Made by a program: the position numbers and the translations under genes | In this document: positions 8,815 to 19,412 of the stretch, one piece after another | How the letters are laid out: every line of letters starts with the position of its first letter | How positions within the stretch are numbered: the first letter of the stretch is position 1 | From: Candidatus Zixiibacteriota bacterium | GTDB taxonomy: Bacteria > Zixibacteria > MSB-5A5 > GN15 > FEB-12 | Direction of reading: 5' to 3' | NCBI GenBank assembly: GCA_020351995.1 | Contig: CP070674.1 | Location: 550,451-614,450, forward strand | DNA length: 64,000 nucleotides | The notes under the pieces: generated by a model | Databases searched by the model: none | Seen by the model: the letters and a program-made list of their open reading frames with translations, nothing else | Told to the model about the DNA's origin: nothing

Positions 8815-10074
8815 CTACGTTCCCATTTCCCACGAAGCCAGATATTTCTTCTGTTCAGGAGTGAGACGGTCGATGGATATGCCCATGGATTTGAGCTTCA
8901 GGGCGGCAATGTCCCGGTCGACTTTCTCCGGCAAACTGTAGACCCGCTTTTGAAGTTTCCGATGATTATTCACCACGAATTCAGAAGCGAGGGCCTGGTT
9001 GGCAAAGGACATATCCATGACCATCGCCGGGTGACCTTCGGCGCCGGCCAGGTTTATCAAACGCCCCTCGGCCAGGATATAGATTTTCTTCTTGCCGATG
9101 GTGAATTCCTCGACATGAGGCCGAACAATCCGACGTCTGGAAGCCGCCTTGGTGATTTTGGGCAGGTCTATCTCGGCATTGAAGTGACCTGAATTGGCAA
9201 CGATGGCACCGTCCTTCATTCGGCGCACATGTTCCAGCCGGACGACATTGATGTCACCGGTAACGGTGAGGAAAAGATCTCCAATAGGCGCCGCCTTACT
9301 CATCGGCATCACCAAAAAGCCGTCCATGGCCGCTTCAAGAGCTTTGACGTGGTCAACTTCCGTTATAATGACATTGGCTCCCATGCCCTTGGCGCGGATA
9401 GCCAGTCCCCGGCCGCACCATCCGTAGCCGGCTATCACCACCGTCGAACCGGCGATGAGCATATTGGTGCATCGTAGCACGCCGTCGAGTGTCGACTGTC
9501 CGGTGCCATACCGGTTATCAAAGAAGTGTTTGGTTTTGGAGTCATTGACCGCAATAACGGCAAACAGCAGGGCATCATCTTTCTCCATCGCCCGCAGACG
9601 AATCACCCCGGTGGTAGTTTCCTCGGTGCCCGCCATCACATGTTTGGCTAGGGCTTTTCGCTCGGTATGTAGCGTCGAAACCAGATCGGCGCCATCATCC
9701 ATGGTAATGCGCGGTTTAATATCCAGCGCCTGATGAATGTGCCTGTAATAGGTTTTGTTGTCCTCGCCGTTTCTGGCAAACACGCTGATGCCGTACTCTT
9801 TGACGAGAGCCGCAGCTGTATCATCCTGCGTGGAGAGTGGGTTGGAGGCACACAGAGTGAGGTTAGCCCCGCCAGCTTTGAGGGCTCGCATCAGGTTAGC
9901 CGTCTCGGTGGTAACATGAAGACAGCAAGCCATGTTGATACCTTTGAGCGGTTTTTGTTTGGCGAAGCGCTCCCTAATCAGGCGGAGCACCGGCATGGAC
10001 CGTTCGGCCCACTCAATTTTCTTCTTGCCGTCCTTAGCCAGGCGGATGTTAGTAATATCGTGTCTCGTACTCAT
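8815..10074 (-). CDS. ahcY: Adenosylhomocysteinase
   Basis: 419 aa. The enzyme hydrolyses S-adenosylhomocysteine to adenosine and homocysteine using bound NAD. The NAD site is VVIAGYGWCGRGLA (GxGxxG), and catalytic surroundings include HVTTETANL and NSGHFNAEID. The length and the C-terminal ending YLASWEMGT match the short form of Thermotoga and archaea, which lacks the ~40-residue insert and C-terminal tail of the E. coli/eukaryotic-type enzyme. It lies 3 nt after metK on the same strand, an obvious SAM synthesis/recycling operon. Confidence 0.95.
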   Translation of the reverse strand: MSTRHDITNIRLAKDGKKKIEWAERSMPVLRLIRERFAKQKPLKGINMACCLHVTTETANLMRALKAGGANLTLCASNPLSTQDDTAAALVKEYGISVFARNGEDNKTYYRHIHQALDIKPRITMDDGADLVSTLHTERKALAKHVMAGTEETTTGVIRLRAMEKDDALLFAVIAVNDSKTKHFFDNRYGTGQSTLDGVLRCTNMLIAGSTVVIAGYGWCGRGLAIRAKGMGANVIITEVDHVKALEAAMDGFLVMPMSKAAPIGDLFLTVTGDINVVRLEHVRRMKDGAIVANSGHFNAEIDLPKITKAASRRRIVRPHVEEFTIGKKKIYILAEGRLINLAGAEGHPAMVMDMSFANQALASEFVVNNHRKLQKRVYSLPEKVDRDIAALKLKSMGISIDRLTPEQKKYLASWEMGT

Positions 10075-10077
10075 TAT

Positions 10078-11241
10078 CTACGCTTCCTTCGCCAGTATTT
10101 TGGCTTTGTCGGTCCGTTCCCAGGTGAACTCTCTCTCATTACGCCCAAAGTGCCCGTAGGCGGAGGTTTTGCCATAAATGGGACGAAGCAGGTCGAGCTG
10201 CTTGATGATGCCCCTGGGTGTCATATCGAAGTGCTTGTTAATTAGCTCGACAATTCGCTTTTCGGGGATCTTGTTGGTTTTGTTGGTATAGAGCATCATC
10301 GAAACCGGGCGGGCGACGCCTATGGCATAAGCCAGCTGTATATTACATTTATCGGCCAGACCGGAGGCGACAACGTTCTTGGCGATGTAACGGGCCATGT
10401 AGCTTGCGGAACGGTCAACTTTGGTCGGGTCCTTGCCGGAAAAAGCGCCGCCGCCGTGGGATGCCATACCGCCATAGGTATCGACAATTATCTTCCGGCC
10501 GGTCATCCCCGTATCCGATTGAGGGCCTCCGACTACGAATTTTCCGGTAGGGTTAACCCAGAACTTTGTTTTCCTATCAGTCATTTTGGCCGGTATGATT
10601 GGCAGGGCTATTTTCTCGATGATTTCCTCGATGGCTTTTTTGGTTATCTTCTTGCCGGATTTGTTAAGAATCTCTTCAGTGTGTTGTGTGGAAATCACCA
10701 CGCTGTCGACCCGGTAAGGCTTCTTCTCGCGATACTCAACTGTGACCTGAGATTTTCCGTCAGGTCCCAGATAAGGCAGAATCTTCTTTTTTCGCACGGT
10801 GGCCAACTGTCGGGTAAGTTTATGAGCCAGCATAATGGGTATAGGCATAAGTTCCCTGGTATCGCGTGTCGCGTAGCCGGACATGAGGCCCTGGTCGCCG
10901 GCTCCGCCGATATCCACACCCTGAGCAATATCAGGCGACTGAGACCCGATAGCATTCAGAATAGCGCAGGAATCATAGGCAAAACCGTACCTGCTGTCGG
11001 TGTACCCTACTTCCTTTACAATCCGTCTGACCAGCTTGTGAATGTCGACATATGCGCTGGTGGTGATTTCACCCCCGACTATCACAAGCCCGGTCGTTAC
11101 GAACGTCTCACAGGCGACGCGTCCGGTTCGATCCTGCTTAATGATTTCGTCCAGAACACCGTCTGATATCCTGTCACATAACTTGTCCGGGTGACCTTCG
11201 GTTACCGACTCCGAAGTAAAGAGGAAATTCCCCTCGGTCAT
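10078..11241 (-). CDS. metK: S-adenosylmethionine synthetase
   Basis: 387 aa, full length. It makes SAM from methionine and ATP. The N-terminal [18 protein letters not shown] motif and the central [16 protein letters not shown] motif are the two PROSITE-type signatures of the family. AAAGGAG precedes the ATG at a good distance. It is the first gene of a metK-ahcY pair, with a 3-nt gap. The 62-nt upstream spacer is too short and lacks the stems for a SAM riboswitch. Confidence 0.97.
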
Positions 11242-11303
11242 TATAGACTCCTTTAACTGATGTTCAAATCAAAATGCAGATATACAGAACGCCGCGAAAA
11301 TTA

Positions 11304-12275
11304 TCAACCGCTAATCTGAGTCGAATCGCCAATATTGAGAACTTTCTTCTCTCCCTTAACGGCAGCATCGTTACCGACAATGGATTTCTCCAGAATCAGG
11401 TTTTCCAGCCGGGCATCTTTGCCAATGATGGCGTCCGAAATGATACAGTTCCTGACCCGGGTCCCGGCGGCTATTGAGACATTGGGGCCGATCACCGAGT
11501 TCTCAATGCGGGCCTCTTCCGAGATATATACTGGCGGCTCCAGTGAGGTACCCTTTATCGGCGTGGGTTCGGGCATTTTCTCGAGAAAGTGGCGGTTGGT
11601 GGCGAGCATGGTTTCCTTTTTGCCGCAGTCAAACCACTTGTCAACCTCGAAAGGTGTGAACTTTATCTTTCTCTTGAGCATCCCTGCCAACGCGTCAGTA
11701 AGCTGAATCTCTCCCCTGGTTTTCTTCCCGGAGTCTACCAGTTGTCTCAGTTCGCGCTTCAATAATCCTGATTCGGAGAAGTAATAAAGGCCTATCAGAG
11801 CGAGATTTCCTTTGGGTTCCTTAGGTTTCTCCTCCAGGCTGACCACAGTATCGCGATTAATCTCGGCAATGCCGAACCTCTGCGGGTCTTCCACCGGGTG
11901 CAGGCCAAGAGTGTAATCGCCAGCGGTTACGAATTTCTTGAGGTCTCCCTCTACGACCGTGTCGCCGAGCAGGATTAGCACCGGGCTTTCGGTGAGAGCG
12001 TTCAGGGCGATGTGCAGGGCATAGCCCAGACCGAGCAGTTTATCCTGAGGTACAAAAGTGGCTTTGAATTCATAATTTCTTCGGACGTAGTCCTTTATCA
12101 TGTCGCCTTTGTACCCGATGACAAAAACCACCTCGTCCGGTTTGAGTCCGGTAATCGGCTCAAGCAGGTAGTCTATTATTGTCTTGCCGCCTATCTGCAG
12201 AAGCGGTTTGGGCTGTGTGAGCGTATGTGGTTTGAGTCTTGTCCCGACCCCTGCTACGGGAATAATCACTTTCAT
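11304..12275 (-). CDS. Sugar-phosphate nucleotidyltransferase with beta-helix tail
   Basis: 323 aa. The N-terminus has the nucleotidyltransferase signature VAGVGTRLKPHTLTQPKPLL, and GD in LGDTVVEGD is the metal-binding region. The last ~80 residues show hexapeptide-like repeats (ARIENSVIGPNVSIAAGTRV), typical of a left-handed beta-helix. Such proteins activate a sugar 1-phosphate to an NDP-sugar for glycan synthesis. The architecture resembles RfbA/RmlA-like and GlmU-like proteins, but the sugar cannot be told from sequence. It is upstream of metK on the same strand with a 62-nt gap. Confidence 0.85.
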   Translation of the reverse strand: MKVIIPVAGVGTRLKPHTLTQPKPLLQIGGKTIIDYLLEPITGLKPDEVVFVIGYKGDMIKDYVRRNYEFKATFVPQDKLLGLGYALHIALNALTESPVLILLGDTVVEGDLKKFVTAGDYTLGLHPVEDPQRFGIAEINRDTVVSLEEKPKEPKGNLALIGLYYFSESGLLKRELRQLVDSGKKTRGEIQLTDALAGMLKRKIKFTPFEVDKWFDCGKKETMLATNRHFLEKMPEPTPIKGTSLEPPVYISEEARIENSVIGPNVSIAAGTRVRNCIISDAIIGKDARLENLILEKSIVGNDAAVKGEKKVLNIGDSTQISG

Positions 12276-12442: not shown

Positions 12443-13081
12443 TCAGAATATGGTGGAGAAACTGCCGATCCAGTCCTCAACCAAAAACTGGACCCGGCCG
12501 ATCAGCAGTGAAACACGACCCATGACGGTGTAGCCGAAGTGGGCACCGAATGATATCATTATGAACCAGATTCCGACCTTGGCAGCACCCCCGAATATAC
12601 CGGTATGTTCTTTGGAGAAATAGAAATAGATGAGGGTGGAGATAACACCTATCACGACAATTATGGCTAATATCGTGGCCGCGAATCCGTTTTCGCCACC
12701 GAGCGCCAGCATGGTCCACTGCATCTGTGGCAGAACCCTGCCATGAAGTTCGGTGACCAGAAATACTCCGGCCGTTGTTCCCATCACAAACGCCAGTGAT
12801 ATGCGCGATAGCCAGGATATTCGGGGCCAGAACCTTGCAAACATGAAGACTCCCAAAACGCCCGGCACAAGGAGCTGCCACTGCCCCGCACCTATCATGG
12901 GGTCCCAGAGCTTCTGCAAAATGATGGTATCCCAGATAAGGCCTACCTGATATCCAGCGGTAAGGCCAGCGAATATGTGTTCCGCAAGCTTATAGACCGG
13001 GTTGTCTTTATAAAGGAAGGAAAACAGAGCCAGCGTAAAGAAGGCCATCACCCATATTTGCAATAGCTCCATAAAGCTCAC
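12443..13081 (-). CDS. Unknown polytopic membrane protein (cassette gene 4)
   Basis: 212 aa with about six hydrophobic helices and short loops; no cysteines and no recognisable motif. The conserved-looking charged pieces are YKDNPVYKLAEH near the N-terminus and FARFWPRISWLSR in the middle. The ATG overlaps the stop of the preceding gene (ATGA, 13078-13081), showing translational coupling. It is the last gene of a four-gene membrane cassette (12443-15461) whose first gene is a DUF6754-type protein. I do not recognise its family; a membrane complex with its three neighbours is an inference from gene order and coupling. Confidence 0.75.
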   Translation of the reverse strand: MSFMELLQIWVMAFFTLALFSFLYKDNPVYKLAEHIFAGLTAGYQVGLIWDTIILQKLWDPMIGAGQWQLLVPGVLGVFMFARFWPRISWLSRISLAFVMGTTAGVFLVTELHGRVLPQMQWTMLALGGENGFAATILAIIVVIGVISTLIYFYFSKEHTGIFGGAAKVGIWFIMISFGAHFGYTVMGRVSLLIGRVQFLVEDWIGSFSTIF

Positions 13082-13917
13082 GCCGCCCTGCCTTTCCTGC
13101 GCTGGGCACGCCCTACAAAGAAAGCAATATTACCAACTATCACGAAGGCAATAATCAGAAAATGCACCAGGGATTGGATATCCATGCCGCGAAAAGCTGT
13201 ATCGGGCTGTCCCAGCAGGATTTCGTACTCGGCGGCGCCTTTCATTCCACCCAGAAGGCCGACGATCTGTTTGGAGCCTACGTAGGCATAATATTTGGGA
13301 GCCATTACCGCCGTCATGGCGACTCCCATAGGCACACCGTAGCCGGCATTGACGATGGATATCCAATAATCCGCCGTCGCATTATCGGCAACTTCGAAAA
13401 TAAAGGAAATCTGCCTGTAATTGGTGATTGAATCCATCATCGGCAGTTCGCTCAGGGGAGTGCCGCTGTTATCGGTGGGGAAAATGGACTCTATGGATTG
13501 CCCCATTCCCTTCAGAACCGATACATAGCCGTATTTATAACCGAGATTTACGAAGTCTTTGCCGTACTCCTTGCCCGTCTCAGCGGCGACTCTACGTGTC
13601 ACCGATTCGGCCATGGATGGCGCTCCATAGGGTATGTTGGTGAGGGTAATAATCTTGCAATGCTTGCGGAAGAGATGCCTCGCTCCAACTACCGCCATCG
13701 GCTCAGTTTCCGCGACGGTAGACGGGTAGTAATCAAAAACGAGCATGACGGTGCACGAGTCCGGCAAAGCTTCGACAGCGTCGTAGAAACTTTGCGCTTC
13801 GGGGCTCACGCTTACCGGAAACTTCATGGGAATGATAAAGGGGATGACAACAGCCAAGCCTACCAGCAAGTACACCCAGCGGCGGTCAATCTGTTCCATT
13901 TTTTCCCAGAAGGTCAC
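13078..13917 (-). CDS. Unknown membrane-anchored protein with large soluble domain (cassette gene 3)
   Basis: 279 aa. One membrane helix lies at about residues 15-31 and another at about 248-266, so the ~215-residue middle would sit on one side, probably outside the cytoplasm. That middle looks like an alpha/beta fold (TVMLVFDYYPS, IITLTNIPYGAPS, KDFVNLGYKYG). I recognise no family or catalytic signature. Its stop is coupled to the next gene by ATGA, and it starts 5 nt after the preceding gene, inside the cassette 12443-15461. A ligand-binding or sensor role is conceivable but unsupported. Confidence 0.75.
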   Translation of the reverse strand: MTFWEKMEQIDRRWVYLLVGLAVVIPFIIPMKFPVSVSPEAQSFYDAVEALPDSCTVMLVFDYYPSTVAETEPMAVVGARHLFRKHCKIITLTNIPYGAPSMAESVTRRVAAETGKEYGKDFVNLGYKYGYVSVLKGMGQSIESIFPTDNSGTPLSELPMMDSITNYRQISFIFEVADNATADYWISIVNAGYGVPMGVAMTAVMAPKYYAYVGSKQIVGLLGGMKGAAEYEILLGQPDTAFRGMDIQSLVHFLIIAFVIVGNIAFFVGRAQRRKGRAA

Positions 13918-13922
13918 TGTAT

Positions 13923-14585
13923 TTATCCCTTACCCATATAAGTTCGTTCAATCCCCAGGATAATACGAAGCGACATGGAGGCCGCCCCGAGTGCGGCGCC
14001 GACAATAATACCTCGCTGGACTGCCAGATTGGCTCCGTTCATGACGTAGGTGTTTATCAAATCGGGGATGTTTCCGGGGAGGAGATTAAGAAGCGCTTCG
14101 CCGATTGGCACTCGCCAGAGCATAACCAGGGTGGCTGTCAGAAGCAGGATAGTTGCTTCGGCGTTACGAGCACGGAAAGCACGATAAGCCGCGGAAGCTA
14201 TGTAGAACGCGAGGGTCGCAAACATGGTGGCCATCATAGGCGCCTGCAGATAGTTGAACAACCAGTCGAAGATTGATCCCCGGGCCCGGCCAAACAGGGG
14301 CGACCAGTCCGGCGATAGCACTGATGGGATCGCCGTGACGAAAATCGCGATAATGGTGAACAGTTTGTATATCCAACCGTCACTGCGACGTTTAACAGCC
14401 GCCCAATTGACCCGGGTAATGGAAACCAGGCCCAGAAGCAGGGTGAATCCGCCGACGATAATTACCCAGTCGAGCAGCTGGTGCGACAGTTTGCCTATCG
14501 TGGTGGTTTCTTCATTGAAGAAGAAGGCTACGACCAAAATTAAACCAGAGGCAAATGCAACGAAAACAGGGGCGGCAGTTCTCAT
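13923..14585 (-). CDS. Unknown polytopic membrane protein (cassette gene 2)
   Basis: 220 aa with about six hydrophobic helices. A basic loop (NWAAVKRRSDGW) lies after the second helix and another (RAFRARNAEA) before the fifth. It ends in IERTYMGKG. It lies 24 nt downstream of the DUF6754-type gene and 5 nt upstream of cassette gene 3. No family is recognised. Size, topology and position suggest a core membrane subunit of a complex encoded by the cassette. Confidence 0.75.
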   Translation of the reverse strand: MRTAAPVFVAFASGLILVVAFFFNEETTTIGKLSHQLLDWVIIVGGFTLLLGLVSITRVNWAAVKRRSDGWIYKLFTIIAIFVTAIPSVLSPDWSPLFGRARGSIFDWLFNYLQAPMMATMFATLAFYIASAAYRAFRARNAEATILLLTATLVMLWRVPIGEALLNLLPGNIPDLINTYVMNGANLAVQRGIIVGAALGAASMSLRIILGIERTYMGKG

Positions 14586-14609
14586 AAGTGTGTCAGACTT
14601 CCCAATTAC

Positions 14610-15461
14610 TCATACGGCTTCGAATAGTCCCAGAAACCTATCACTTACGTTGAAAGAGGCCAGGATAACCCCGATTACTATGAGAATTACGATTATTATC
14701 TTGATGAAATCCTGCCCTTTGAGTCCACCCAGCATGAGGGGTTCGTGGGAGAGATAGGCCGAAGCGGCATACAATTCTTCGCCCATCAGGGTGTAATCAC
14801 AGGCAGCGATGAAGAACGGAAGTTGTTCAGGCTTGGCGGTACCGGCGATCTGAATAGAGCCGGCGGCGTTGCCCGTTTCGGCCAGCAGCAGAGACTCGGC
14901 AAAGAATGCCCCCATATAAATGTTGGTCGCAGGCCTCTCCCTCATCATGTAACCGTTGACGTTGGCGGTAAAGGCAAACTGCTCCCCGGCCACATAGCGG
15001 ACAGCATCCCTGTCAAAGGCATCCGCCTTACCCATCTCCACATATGACTGCTCCACAACCTCCTGGGCAGCGGCATAAACCAGCGGATACCGCACAGGAA
15101 CCATCAACGGAGTATCATATTGCGCCGTGATTTTGGCCACACGTCCCAGAATGGAGACGCCGGCAATGGTTTCAATCTGATCCAGTTCATCAATACCGGG
15201 AACATAGAGCACCGGCCTTCCCATCTCGGTAGCTCGCCCCACGGCTTCCTCGACCGCTTGAAGTCCGGCGATTTTTCTCAGAAACAGTGGCTTGCCCTGT
15301 TTGGCCCAACGGGTATAGAGAAGTATGGCGACAGAGAATATTACTACGAAGACCAGCGCATTGAGCCGATCAGTCCGGAATATGTCATCAGGATTCTGGG
15401 CGAATGCTCGATCAAAGCTAAACAGCAGGATGAGTAATACGGTAATAAGTCTTGTTGACAT
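14610..15461 (-). CDS. DUF6754-type membrane protein (cassette gene 1)
   Basis: 283 aa from ATG 15461; a GTG at 15482 is an alternative. A signal-like segment ends in RAFAQN, a membrane helix follows at about residues 30-50, and a last helix lies at about 255-273. The soluble region between them has many family-like motifs: GRATEMGRPVLYVPGI, SILGRVAKI, ESLLLAETGN, IQIAGTAKPEQLPFFIAACD and GEELYAASAYLS. I match these from memory to DUF6754, whose function is unknown to me. It heads a tight four-gene membrane cassette and has a near-consensus promoter just upstream. Confidence 0.8.
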   Translation of the reverse strand: MSTRLITVLLILLFSFDRAFAQNPDDIFRTDRLNALVFVVIFSVAILLYTRWAKQGKPLFLRKIAGLQAVEEAVGRATEMGRPVLYVPGIDELDQIETIAGVSILGRVAKITAQYDTPLMVPVRYPLVYAAAQEVVEQSYVEMGKADAFDRDAVRYVAGEQFAFTANVNGYMMRERPATNIYMGAFFAESLLLAETGNAAGSIQIAGTAKPEQLPFFIAACDYTLMGEELYAASAYLSHEPLMLGGLKGQDFIKIIIVILIVIGVILASFNVSDRFLGLFEAV

Positions 15462-15487
15462 TTGGCGTACTCGTGATGGCACAGGGG

Positions 15488-15515
15488 AATATAACTGAGA
15501 ACCTTAAAATGTCAA
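15488..15515 (-). promoter_or_regulatory. Strong candidate promoter of the membrane cassette
   Basis: Read on the minus strand: TTGACA (15515-15510), 16 bp, TATATT (15493-15488). This near-consensus sigma-70 promoter would start transcription around 15481, giving a leader of about 20 nt before ATG 15461. No clear Shine-Dalgarno sequence is present. Confidence 0.6.
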
Positions 15516-15982: not shown

Positions 15983-16431
15983 GGGATAAGACCCTGTTGA
16001 TAATCAATGAGTTACAGCAATGCAATTCGTAATATTAAGCCCGCTAATAGCTTAAGAAATTGAGTAAAAATCAGATTTGTGAGGTTTTTTTGAGAATTAT
16101 TAAATGCCATTATGGCGCAACAGTTGTCGAAATGGCGCCCGGCCTCGCAAGCCTAATCCGGCCTACATATTAAGCACTGGTGGCCGTTCCGACCGCATAT
16201 TAATGAGGTGTGGAGTGGTCTATCAAATCGCATCACATCCTCTGCCGACTGACTCGACAGTATCAATTGTTGGCCCCGATGCCACCGCGCCTTACCATCC
16301 GATGCTTACGTCGAACCGAACGTATTCCTGACCGCATAGCCGGGGCCGAGGGCGGGGCAACTTTTTGTTTTTCTTAAGTGTCCACAGCCCATATATTACC
16401 GGTCCACAATTTGACTTAAATGGAGGCGAGT
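15983..16431. other. A+T-rich divergent intergenic region
   Basis: About 450 bp between the tRNA-Glu promoter and the LonC-like gene. The first 150 bp is A+T-rich. A 75-codon frame at 16104-16331 has no ribosome binding site and no recognisable motif, so I do not call it. TATATT at 16392-16397, 34 nt before the protease ATG, may be its -10 box, but the matching -35 is poor. I see no conserved RNA fold. Confidence 0.5.
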
Positions 16432-18909
16432 ATGGCAGCCAAGGGGCGCACAAAGGTAAAGAAAATAAAAGAGTTAAGTTTCAAGGAACTGAATTTCCGG
16501 GTAACTTATTCTCCCACCAAAATCCGAACTTCGCATGACGTAGCCCCTTGCTGTGGAATAATCGGCCAGACCAAAGCCATTGAGGCCATAAAGTTGGGAC
16601 TTAACGTTAAGAGTCCGGGCTACAATATCTTTGTGACCGGTCTGTCCGGTACTGGTCGCTCGACCACGATAAAGCTTCTGCTCCAGCAACTGGACCAGAA
16701 GCGTCCCCGATTGAACGACATCTGCTACGTCAACAATTTCAAGAACGAGGATTGTCCCAAGGTTCTGATATTCGCCGCCGGTGATGGTTCACGCTTCAAG
16801 AAGGACATGCACTACCTTATCAGTTCCATAAGAAAGGTTGTGCCGAAGATTTTCTTATCGGAGGATTACAAGGATCGTCAGAGTCGGATCATCCGTGAAT
16901 TCGAGGGCCGTCAGAAGGACCTGATAAACGAATTCGAAGAACGTCTTACCGATGCCGGTTTCGTTATGGTTCAGCTTCAGGTCGGTATGGGTGTCAGAAA
17001 TGAGATTCAGCCGCTGGTAGACGGGGAACCGAGTTCACTCGAGAAGCTTGAGAAATTGGCCAAGGACGGGCAGTTTTCCCTGTCCCGGCTGGATGAGATG
17101 CGGCGCCAGTGGGACAGTCTGCGTCGTGAGTTCGACACTGTGACGGTTGAGTCCAAGAAATTGACTAATAAGCTCGAGGATGCTCTTGGCAAGCTCGACC
17201 TGGCGATGCTGACCCCCCTGGTAGGCGACAAAGTCGCTTTGCTGAAGAAACGCTACCCCGATGAGAAGGTTCAGACTTACCTTGAGGAGGCCGAGGAGGC
17301 GTTGCTGAGTGATATTGATCGATTCAGGGAGGCCCAGCCCAGGCGGGGTGAGGAGGAGCCTCCGCCGTATCGCAAACGCGAGCCTTTTGAAGAGTTTTCG
17401 GTGAATCTCATTCTCGATAATTCCCAGGCCGACCATGTGCCAATAATTGTTGAGAGGTCCCCTTCGTACAAGAACACCTTTGGCTCGCTCGAGCGTGTTG
17501 TAGACAGATTTGGATACTGGCGCACAGACTTTACGCGTATTTTCTCCGGATCACTTTTGAAGGCCTCGGGCGGATTTTTCATAATCAACGCCACCGACCT
17601 TCTCAGTGAGCCCGGAATGTGGGTGTACCTGAAGCGCGCGCTGCGCAACCGGGAGATCGAGATCACCGGTTATGATCCTTTTTACATGATGGCCGGGGCG
17701 GGAATCAAACCGGAGCCGATACCGCTCGATGTCAAGGTTGTTCTTATCGGTGAACCGGAAATTTACCGCTTGCTATGGCGGCTTGACGAGGATTTCAAGA
17801 AGATTTTCAAAGTCAAGGCCGAGTTCGACAACGTCATGAAAAATACCAAATCGAACCTTCGCCAGTACTTCGAATTCGTCCGAAAGGTCATCAATGATGA
17901 AGGCCTGCCGCCATTTGACCTTAGCGGGATGCAGGCCGTATGTGAGTACGGTATGCGCCTCTCAGGCCGCCGTGATCGGCTGACGACCCGTTTCACACCG
18001 GTTTCCGACATAATAAAAGAGAGTTCCTTCTGCGCTGTCCAGCGAAAGAGCAAGGTGGTCAGCCGGGAAGACGTCTACTGCGCTATTCAGAACAGGAAGT
18101 CGCGCGTCAACTTGGTTGAAGAGAAGATTCAGGAGATGTTCGACGAAAACGATTTGCTCGTTACCACACGCGGCGCGGAGGTGGGGCAGATCAACGGTCT
18201 GTCGATTTATCATCTCGGAGACCATACCTTCGGTCGACCCACGCGCATTACTGTCAACACCGCCCTGGGCAAAGAGGGTATCATCAATATCGAACGTGAA
18301 GCGGATTTATCGGGGCCTATCCACAACAAGGGCGTTCTCGTTCTGACCGGGTATCTCAGGCAGATGTTCGCTCAGGACAAGCCCCTGGCCATCTCGGCAT
18401 CGATATCCTTCGAGCAATCTTATGTTGGTGTTGACGGCGACTCGGCGTCGTCAACCGAGATATACGCTATCCTTTCGTCAATATCCGGTATTCCCATCAA
18501 ACAGAATATCGCTGTCACGGGCTCGGTCAATCAAAAGGGCGAGATACAGCCCATTGGTGGTGTCAACGAGAAGATTGAAGGTTTCTTCGACGTATGTAAA
18601 AGCCGCGGCCTCACCGGCGATCAGGGTGTTGTCATACCGCAGCAGAATGTTTCGGACCTGATGCTCCGCCGTGACGTGATCGAGGCCGTGAAAACCCGCA
18701 AGTTCCACATATATCCCGTCAAGACAGTTGAGCAGGGCGTCGAGATTCTTACCGGCATCCCGGCCGGCCGGCGTATGGCCAGTGGGAAATTCACCGCCAG
18801 CACCGTCATGGGCAAGGTTGATGCGAAGCTTCATCAGATGGCGTTGACGCTTCAGAACTATGGCCGCGTTCAGAGCAACAACGATACCAAGACAAAAAAG
18901 AAACGTTGA
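16432..18909 (+). CDS. LonC-like ATP-dependent protease homologue
   Basis: 825 aa. ATG 16432 is chosen over ATG 16420 because GGAGG lies 5 nt upstream. The N-terminal half contains an AAA-type domain interrupted by a long helical insert (about residues 115-300). The Walker A-like loop is GLSGTGRST, with Arg in place of the usual Lys. The C-terminal Lon protease domain has the Ser-Lys dyad in GDSASSTE (S671) and GGVNEKIEG (K714). The 43-residue spacing equals that in E. coli Lon. This architecture is the YcbZ/LonC branch, some of which are reported not to need ATP. It probably degrades unfolded proteins. A short basic tail (KTKKKR) closes the protein. Confidence 0.9.
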   Translation: MAAKGRTKVKKIKELSFKELNFRVTYSPTKIRTSHDVAPCCGIIGQTKAIEAIKLGLNVKSPGYNIFVTGLSGTGRSTTIKLLLQQLDQKRPRLNDICYVNNFKNEDCPKVLIFAAGDGSRFKKDMHYLISSIRKVVPKIFLSEDYKDRQSRIIREFEGRQKDLINEFEERLTDAGFVMVQLQVGMGVRNEIQPLVDGEPSSLEKLEKLAKDGQFSLSRLDEMRRQWDSLRREFDTVTVESKKLTNKLEDALGKLDLAMLTPLVGDKVALLKKRYPDEKVQTYLEEAEEALLSDIDRFREAQPRRGEEEPPPYRKREPFEEFSVNLILDNSQADHVPIIVERSPSYKNTFGSLERVVDRFGYWRTDFTRIFSGSLLKASGGFFIINATDLLSEPGMWVYLKRALRNREIEITGYDPFYMMAGAGIKPEPIPLDVKVVLIGEPEIYRLLWRLDEDFKKIFKVKAEFDNVMKNTKSNLRQYFEFVRKVINDEGLPPFDLSGMQAVCEYGMRLSGRRDRLTTRFTPVSDIIKESSFCAVQRKSKVVSREDVYCAIQNRKSRVNLVEEKIQEMFDENDLLVTTRGAEVGQINGLSIYHLGDHTFGRPTRITVNTALGKEGIINIEREADLSGPIHNKGVLVLTGYLRQMFAQDKPLAISASISFEQSYVGVDGDSASSTEIYAILSSISGIPIKQNIAVTGSVNQKGEIQPIGGVNEKIEGFFDVCKSRGLTGDQGVVIPQQNVSDLMLRRDVIEAVKTRKFHIYPVKTVEQGVEILTGIPAGRRMASGKFTASTVMGKVDAKLHQMALTLQNYGRVQSNNDTKTKKKR

Positions 18910-19139
18910 GGTGCGTCGATGGCGTGAACGACGCCTTCTGGTGCACGCGATCGTCATTAACCGACGCATGAATCAATCGTGAGAGCCATCCGGCGCATTT
19001 GATCAATATCGCGCATCTCGAATCAAATTTCCTGCCTGAAAAAAAATTAAATAATTGCACATTTTTATTAAATTTTTTCTTGACATGAAATCAACGAAGA
19101 GTGTTTTTTTATTCAACAATCCATAATGGAGGACGTTCA

Positions 19140-19412
19140 ATGCGCAAAGCTAAAAAAACAACCAAGAAGAAAGTCGCAAAGAGGAAAGCGGCTCCGAAGA
19201 AAAAGAAGGTGACCAAGAAGAAAGCCAAGAAGAGAGTCACCAAGAGGAGAGTGGCCAAGAAGAGAGTCACCAAAAAGAAAGTGGCTAAGAAGAAAGCCAA
19301 AAAGAAAGCCACCAAGAAGACCCGTTGCGCTGCCAAGACGAAAGGCGGCAAGATGTGCAAGCGCTTCACGGATGGCAAATCCAAGTATTGCTCAGTGCAT
19401 AAGAAGAGGTAA
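19140..19412 (+). CDS. Histone H1-like lysine-rich protein with Cys/His tail
   Basis: 90 aa. The ATG at 19140 follows GGAGG at normal distance; a longer frame from 19101 is not needed. Residues 1-61 are almost entirely Lys, Arg, Ala, Val and Thr in repeats such as VTKKK and VAKKK, like the C-terminal tail of histone H1 and bacterial H1-like proteins that bind DNA. Residues 62-90 differ: C63, C73, C84 and H87 form a CX9CX10CX2H pattern, reminiscent of a small family (DUF5763-like) with a probable zinc site. A DNA-compacting or nucleic-acid-binding role is likely. A TTGACA at 19080-19085 may be its -35, but no good -10 follows. Confidence 0.85.
   Translation: MRKAKKTTKKKVAKRKAAPKKKKVTKKKAKKRVTKRRVAKKRVTKKKVAKKKAKKKATKKTRCAAKTKGGKMCKRFTDGKSKYCSVHKKR

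Follow-up and report, generated by a model that had tools for sequence, protein, structure and literature searches.

A widely conserved four-gene membrane unit led by a DUF6754 protein and its likely GlmL/MutL-family partner

INTRODUCTION

Several described systems each resemble a part of the locus considered here. The Pfam entry DUF6754 (PF20539) covers a single protein, and the lead gene product of our cassette (A) is a full-length member; the entry holds neither the three proteins encoded after it (B, C and D), nor the tandem unit types, nor the association with a MutL-like protein and a further protein, E. GlmL/MutL (PF13941) is the family of the methylaspartate mutase accessory protein. 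The ATPase-like partner described below belongs to it, but is ~610 residues long rather than ~450, sits with a membrane cassette and is sometimes fused to E, and its neighbours include no recognised mutase gene.

Rnf and Na+-NQR resemble our system in having two subunits of about six helices each, a protein with an outward-facing domain and a cytosolic protein with a barrel-sandwich-like domain, a putative one in E. They differ in that B and D are not members of their families, no redox cofactor motifs were seen here and the GlmL-type partner is an addition. ECF-type transporters are similar in that one ATPase-like pair goes with several membrane units per genome, some of them encoded far away, whereas the partner here has an ASKHA rather than an ABC fold and four distinct subunits make up the membrane unit; A to D gave no match to ABC or EcfT proteins, and the partner is of the MutL family. 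A literature search that took in few subscription journals and no preprints returned no paper on DUF6754, PF20539, PF13941 or this gene set.

We analysed a 64-kb stretch of DNA (the window), which contains no N runs and whose source, judged by the names of its relatives, is a member of the Zixibacteria. An earlier note on the window had proposed that four adjacent genes encode one membrane complex, and we compared these genes, their neighbours and their relatives across genomes.

RESULTS

A compact cassette behind a conserved promoter

The cassette is made up of the following features.

14610..15461, minus strand: gene A, DUF6754 (PF20539); ATG at 15461, alternative GTG at 15482; signal/first helix, helix 33-51, predicted cytoplasmic alpha/beta domain, helix 255-273; this copy without fibronectin-III (fn3) domain
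13923..14585, minus strand: gene B, six-helix membrane protein without known family, both termini predicted inside
13078..13917, minus strand: gene C, two helices flanking a 216-residue Rossmann-like domain, predicted extracytoplasmic
12443..13081, minus strand: gene D, six to seven predicted helices, without known family
15488..15515, minus strand: promoter TTGACA-16-TATATT, sigma-70-type; hexamers and spacer kept in congeners

The genes are packed as the earlier note had read them, with gaps of 24 nt between A and B and 5 nt between B and C and a 4-nt overlap of C and D. The family name that it had given for the lead gene is correct: A matches PF20539 with an E-value of 1.8e-118 (394.8 bits against a cut-off of 27, with 248 of 257 positions aligned). 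Alignment-averaged hydropathy likewise bears out its outline of A as a soluble domain between two helices, at residues 33-51 and 255-273, and of C as carrying a soluble domain of ~215 residues, which spans 216 residues (34-249) between two helices. By the same measure B has six helices and D six to seven, and a positive-inside reading of the alignments places the domain of A inside and that of C outside. Searches of Pfam, NCBIfam, PADLOC and PHROGs gave nothing significant for B, C or D.

The promoter proposed to precede gene A is present at 15515-15488 with 11 of 12 consensus matches, where 0.02 such promoters are expected by chance per 64-kb window. The promoter is very likely functional, because three congeneric genomes have kept both hexamers and the spacer of 16 nt unchanged despite the divergence of the flanking DNA. 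A transcription start ~7 nt downstream of the -10 box would leave a leader of ~20 nt before the ATG at 15461, which makes this codon probably a better start than the GTG at 15482. That the cassette may be strongly transcribed, as had also been suggested, is read from the promoter consensus only.

The unit is conserved across phyla and its subunits diverge together

DUF6754 proteins occur in 132 of 132 Zixibacteria genomes, mostly in 3-6 copies, and in 113 of 120 WOR-3 genomes. They were found in 50 of the 199 genomes of a Planctomycetes set and in 12 of 16 genomes of a group around a Gemmatimonadetes record, and were absent from all 14 well-known genomes used as controls.

Conservation of the gene order across phyla had been set beforehand as a test of the proposed complex. 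We fetched 80 named loci starting from A and sought all four families by profile, which yielded 109 complete, contiguous A-B-C-D units in 79 loci. The unit records carry the labels of about ten phyla in all, taken from the record titles of metagenome-assembled genomes: Zixibacteria, WOR-3/Stahlbacteria, Latescibacterota, Eisenbacteria, Coatesbacteria, Edwardsbacteria, Gemmatimonadetes, Planctomycetes, Cloacimonadota, Riflebacteria and Fermentibacteria. Intergenic gaps in the 109 units have a median of 3 nt, with 97.6% at or below 60 nt and 38% overlapping. The genes for A to D are thus neighbours nearly everywhere; in some Planctomycetes A and D stand at separate loci. In a relative within the Zixibacteria (L015:5541-7317), as well as in G030, G038 and G040, two adjacent A genes precede B-C-D, so that only the DUF6754 subunit is duplicated.

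Pairwise distances among the four proteins correlate at 0.77-0.84 overall, compared with at most 0.08 after shuffling, a procedure that ignores the shared ancestry of the organisms. A within-locus version contrasts units inside one genome: for the 23 loci with at least two units, r is 0.85-0.89, and shuffling of subunits within loci lowers it to ~0.3 (maximum of 500 shuffles, 0.64). Because within-locus shuffling lowers r, the subunits of one unit have diverged together, the pattern that would be expected of an obligate complex. The kept order and this co-divergence strongly support the earlier proposal of one multisubunit membrane complex, and none of the genes fits a separate known complex. 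We consider it very likely, from these comparisons of genomes, that A, B, C and D are four subunits of one complex.

Unit types and the surroundings of the solo copy

Genomes carry several paralogous unit types, often three in tandem, and the window holds a fourth, solo type. Duplication has nearly always been by whole four-gene unit. In a tree of concatenated units, the tandem units 1, 2 and 3 of Zixibacteria group apart, mostly with good support, and the groups of tandem type each span several taxa. Each tandem type lies close to units of other taxa in the tree, so the types are ancient. In types 1-3, A is extended at its N-terminus by a segment that matches fn3 domains. A separate clade with full support, made up of solo units, includes the window copy; nearly all of its records are named Zixibacteria, and A in this clade is without fn3.

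Most solo units are followed by genes for a nucleotidyltransferase, metK and ahcY, and many have a phosphoglucose/phosphomannose isomerase with a SIS domain upstream. In the window the isomerase is not found upstream, and a tRNA-Glu gene and a divergent Lon-like protease gene stand there instead. The neighbours in the window are as follows.

8815..12275, minus strand: nucleotidyltransferase with a hexapeptide tail, metK and ahcY, after the cassette
16420..18909, plus strand: Lon-like ATP-dependent protease (AAA_32, LonB LID, Lon_C), divergent from the cassette
19101..19412, plus strand: ~100-residue lysine-rich protein with histone-H1-like KKAK repeats and a short tail containing Cys and His

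The nucleotidyltransferase-metK-ahcY order is kept in most Zixibacteria solo loci that extend that far, and in congeners the start of the same Lon-like protease lies upstream of the cassette.

Envelope genes near the units (tol-pal, exbBD-tonB and TonB-dependent receptors) vary between phyla. Four WOR-3 loci (L050, L052, L058 and L060) have a fixed order downstream of D: a DUF4388 protein, two conserved proteins, ExbB, ExbD and TonB, a series that mostly ends in a TonB-dependent receptor. The two conserved proteins have no Pfam match and look roadblock/LC7-like by eye. There is no sign that the cassette belongs to a mobile element, because A was without a match in the plasmid collection (tblastn) and D without one in viral contigs.

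A MutL-like protein and E accompany the units

Clustering of neighbouring genes revealed a MutL/GlmL-family protein of ~610 residues near units in 23 loci and a protein of 375 residues, E, in 20 loci; a later profile pass added a few more. E is usually encoded directly upstream of A or near MutL, and a small protein of ~120 residues, F, often adjoins MutL. Fusion proteins of MutL and E, of ~930-990 residues, were also found. In G136 the gene order is F-MutL-E-A-B-C-D, which is the minimal system.

The partners follow the units at the level of whole genomes as well. E is present in 77 of 78 good Zixibacteria genomes, mostly as a single copy, and in 31 of the 32 genomes behind the cross-phylum loci, and MutL is present in 57 of 59 Zixibacteria genomes, normally as a single copy. 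Over the 199 genomes of the Planctomycetes set, with kinship uncorrected in both tests, presence or absence matches between A and D in 196 (Fisher p 1.6e-42) and between A and E in 191 (Fisher p 3.1e-35). Among the 16 genomes of the Gemmatimonadetes-record group, A, E and MutL occur together in 12. Two genomes lack all three, another has MutL with an E cut short by the end of a contig, and the last has only MutL.

The MutL-like protein matches PF13941 over the full 450 positions (E-value 1.7e-131, 439.6 bits) and has three conserved motifs of ASKHA type, DCGSTTTK, DIGGATTD and GSGG. It looks like a separate subfamily, because its scores fall under all of the NCBIfam GlmL-family cut-offs (242.4 versus 475, 233 versus 600 and 178 versus 204 bits). 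PADLOC profiles for anti-phage defence gave no matches to A to D, E, the MutL-like protein or F.

In the genome of the window, which is a scaffold with joins, MutL and E are encoded ~240 kb from the solo cassette, and owing to this separation their link to the window copy rests on genome-level co-occurrence. An apparent rearrangement in this genome (G000) and a congener, where the tandem cluster seemed to be split inside B or C genes, was rejected because the breaks are N runs:

L009:8531-9268, apparent cluster split, N run
L011:3113-3445, apparent cluster split, N run
L014:6691-7143, apparent cluster split, N run
L013:11827-13221, apparent cluster split, N run

Scaffold joins of this kind make distant synteny unsafe in these single-contig genomes.

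Extra genes for MutL-E fusions of ~930-990 residues lie at L098:10009, L099:9562, L101:9843, L102:9046, L103:5799, L104:9802 and L105:9556. Six of these seven stretches have no ABCD unit near; in L105, A is ~4 kb and B-C-D ~6 kb away. The extra fusions may represent a second MutL-E system. In several Zixibacteria, a secreted protein of ~260 residues with a C-terminal helix and a weak resemblance to PsbP is encoded between MutL and E:

L009:12848-13627, secreted protein, weakly PsbP-like
L064:652-1449, secreted protein, weakly PsbP-like
L073:4849-5622, secreted protein, weakly PsbP-like

Folds of the subunits and alternative explanations

AlphaFold monomer models of A (pLDDT 88.5) and C (pLDDT 94.8) each show an alpha/beta domain between single helices. 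No match at an E-value of 0.001 or better was obtained for either model with Foldseek against the PDB, and comparison of the profiles of A to D with the sequences of solved structures gave a single type of match, of the fn3 part of A paralogues to titin-like fn3. Profile comparison revealed no relation between A and C or between B and D, and no transport or catalytic motif was recognised. A has 26 polar positions conserved at 93% or more (50 sequences) compared with 13 in C. A is thus the more conserved of the two, which would fit a reaction or contact inside the cell that has stayed constant and a task outside that varies more.

A membrane-bound enzyme complex for sugar phosphates or glycans, in which A would bind a phosphosugar inside and C would act on the product outside, could account for some of these features. 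The nearest Foldseek matches of A, all below significance, include many SIS phosphosugar proteins (MurQ, MurR, GmhA) together with eIF2B-like sugar-phosphate isomerases; the 26 conserved polar residues of A are what a binding or active site would show; and the solo type is repeatedly flanked by the SIS-domain phosphoglucose isomerase and the nucleotidyltransferase. However, the query TM-score of these matches is ~0.3, Rossmann-like folds match many things, A has no Pfam SIS match, and the fn3-bearing types are mostly not beside sugar genes. We consider this explanation unlikely.

The ASKHA motifs of the MutL-like protein, and a weak MreB-like match, would also fit an anchor or scaffold in which this protein forms actin-like filaments that A to D tether to the membrane, so that the envelope is organised; tol-pal genes do follow E in some Zixibacteria. 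It is not obvious why such a scaffold should require two proteins with many helices, or a number of specialised unit types, and the GlmL family is not known to polymerise, so that we regard this reading as improbable.

A redox-driven ion pump like Rnf or Na+-NQR would cast E as RnfC/NqrA and B and D as the six-helix subunits. E has sub-threshold barrel-sandwich matches to RnfC_N (E-value 0.0013) and NQRA_N (0.0065), and B and D have ~210-220 residues and roughly six helices, RnfA and RnfE being of similar size and helix number. We nevertheless rejected membership of Rnf/NQR, since neither B nor D has a match to an Rnf-Nqr family in Pfam or NCBIfam. Cysteine is missing from the positions of B and D that are conserved at 93% or more, E is without a match to NADH- or Fe-S-binding families, and Rnf has no GlmL-type partner, which leaves a pump of this kind very improbable. 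It is equally hard to credit that the four proteins are independent and merely share an operon, given that their order is kept across phyla, that subunits of the same unit co-diverge and that duplication is nearly always by four-gene unit.

DISCUSSION

Our main reading is that A to D form one complex and that the MutL-like protein and E act with it, to which we give a joint probability of about 0.68. Taken on its own, action of the MutL-like protein and E with the ABCD complex is likely, judging from gene neighbourhoods and co-occurrence. Physical contact, ATP-driven action and a role in envelope transport are what we infer beyond these patterns.

In the arrangement that we propose, B and D would form an inner-membrane core of about 12 helices. 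A would set its highly conserved alpha/beta domain in the cytoplasm and couple the core to the cytosolic MutL-E pair, while C would set its more variable alpha/beta domain outside, facing the substrate, and most A paralogues would add an outer fibronectin-III domain. The complex would probably be driven or regulated from the cytoplasm by the GlmL/MutL-family ATPase-like protein (ASKHA fold) and by E, a putative barrel-sandwich protein whose C-terminus looks KOW-like by eye in the alignment, with the small F often joining. A single MutL-E pair would normally serve all of the ABCD units in a cell, the solo unit of the window included, an arrangement like that of shared-ATPase transporters, in which several membrane modules depend on one energising module. 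The most likely role would lie in the envelope, with a product linked to a sugar or lipid being transported or assembled; that the ABCD complex carries out ATP-driven transport or assembly is a tentative suggestion, well short of an even chance.

None of the systems used for comparison (Rnf/NQR, ECF, the GlmL equivalog and defence) accommodates the four-gene unit with its types and partners, which, on the evidence here, appear to be new. It is conceivable, at somewhat under even odds, that F-MutL-E-(ABCD)n is an undescribed ATP-driven envelope machine, with a single GlmL-type ATPase as the motor of several four-subunit complexes that are ancient and specialised. If so, a GlmL-family ATPase would, to our knowledge for the first time, be seen to act on a membrane complex.

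At least two phyla have the unit in almost all of their genomes and others have it in part, and it is very probably important in the cell envelope. A widespread envelope machine would thus appear to be unstudied, without a relative by sequence or fold among solved structures, and its partner hints that the GlmL/MutL ATPase family also has a role beyond cobalamin mutases. The four uncharacterised proteins of each unit, which add up to a dozen or more in a genome, would become one testable object with a minimal set of F, MutL, E, A, B, C and D.
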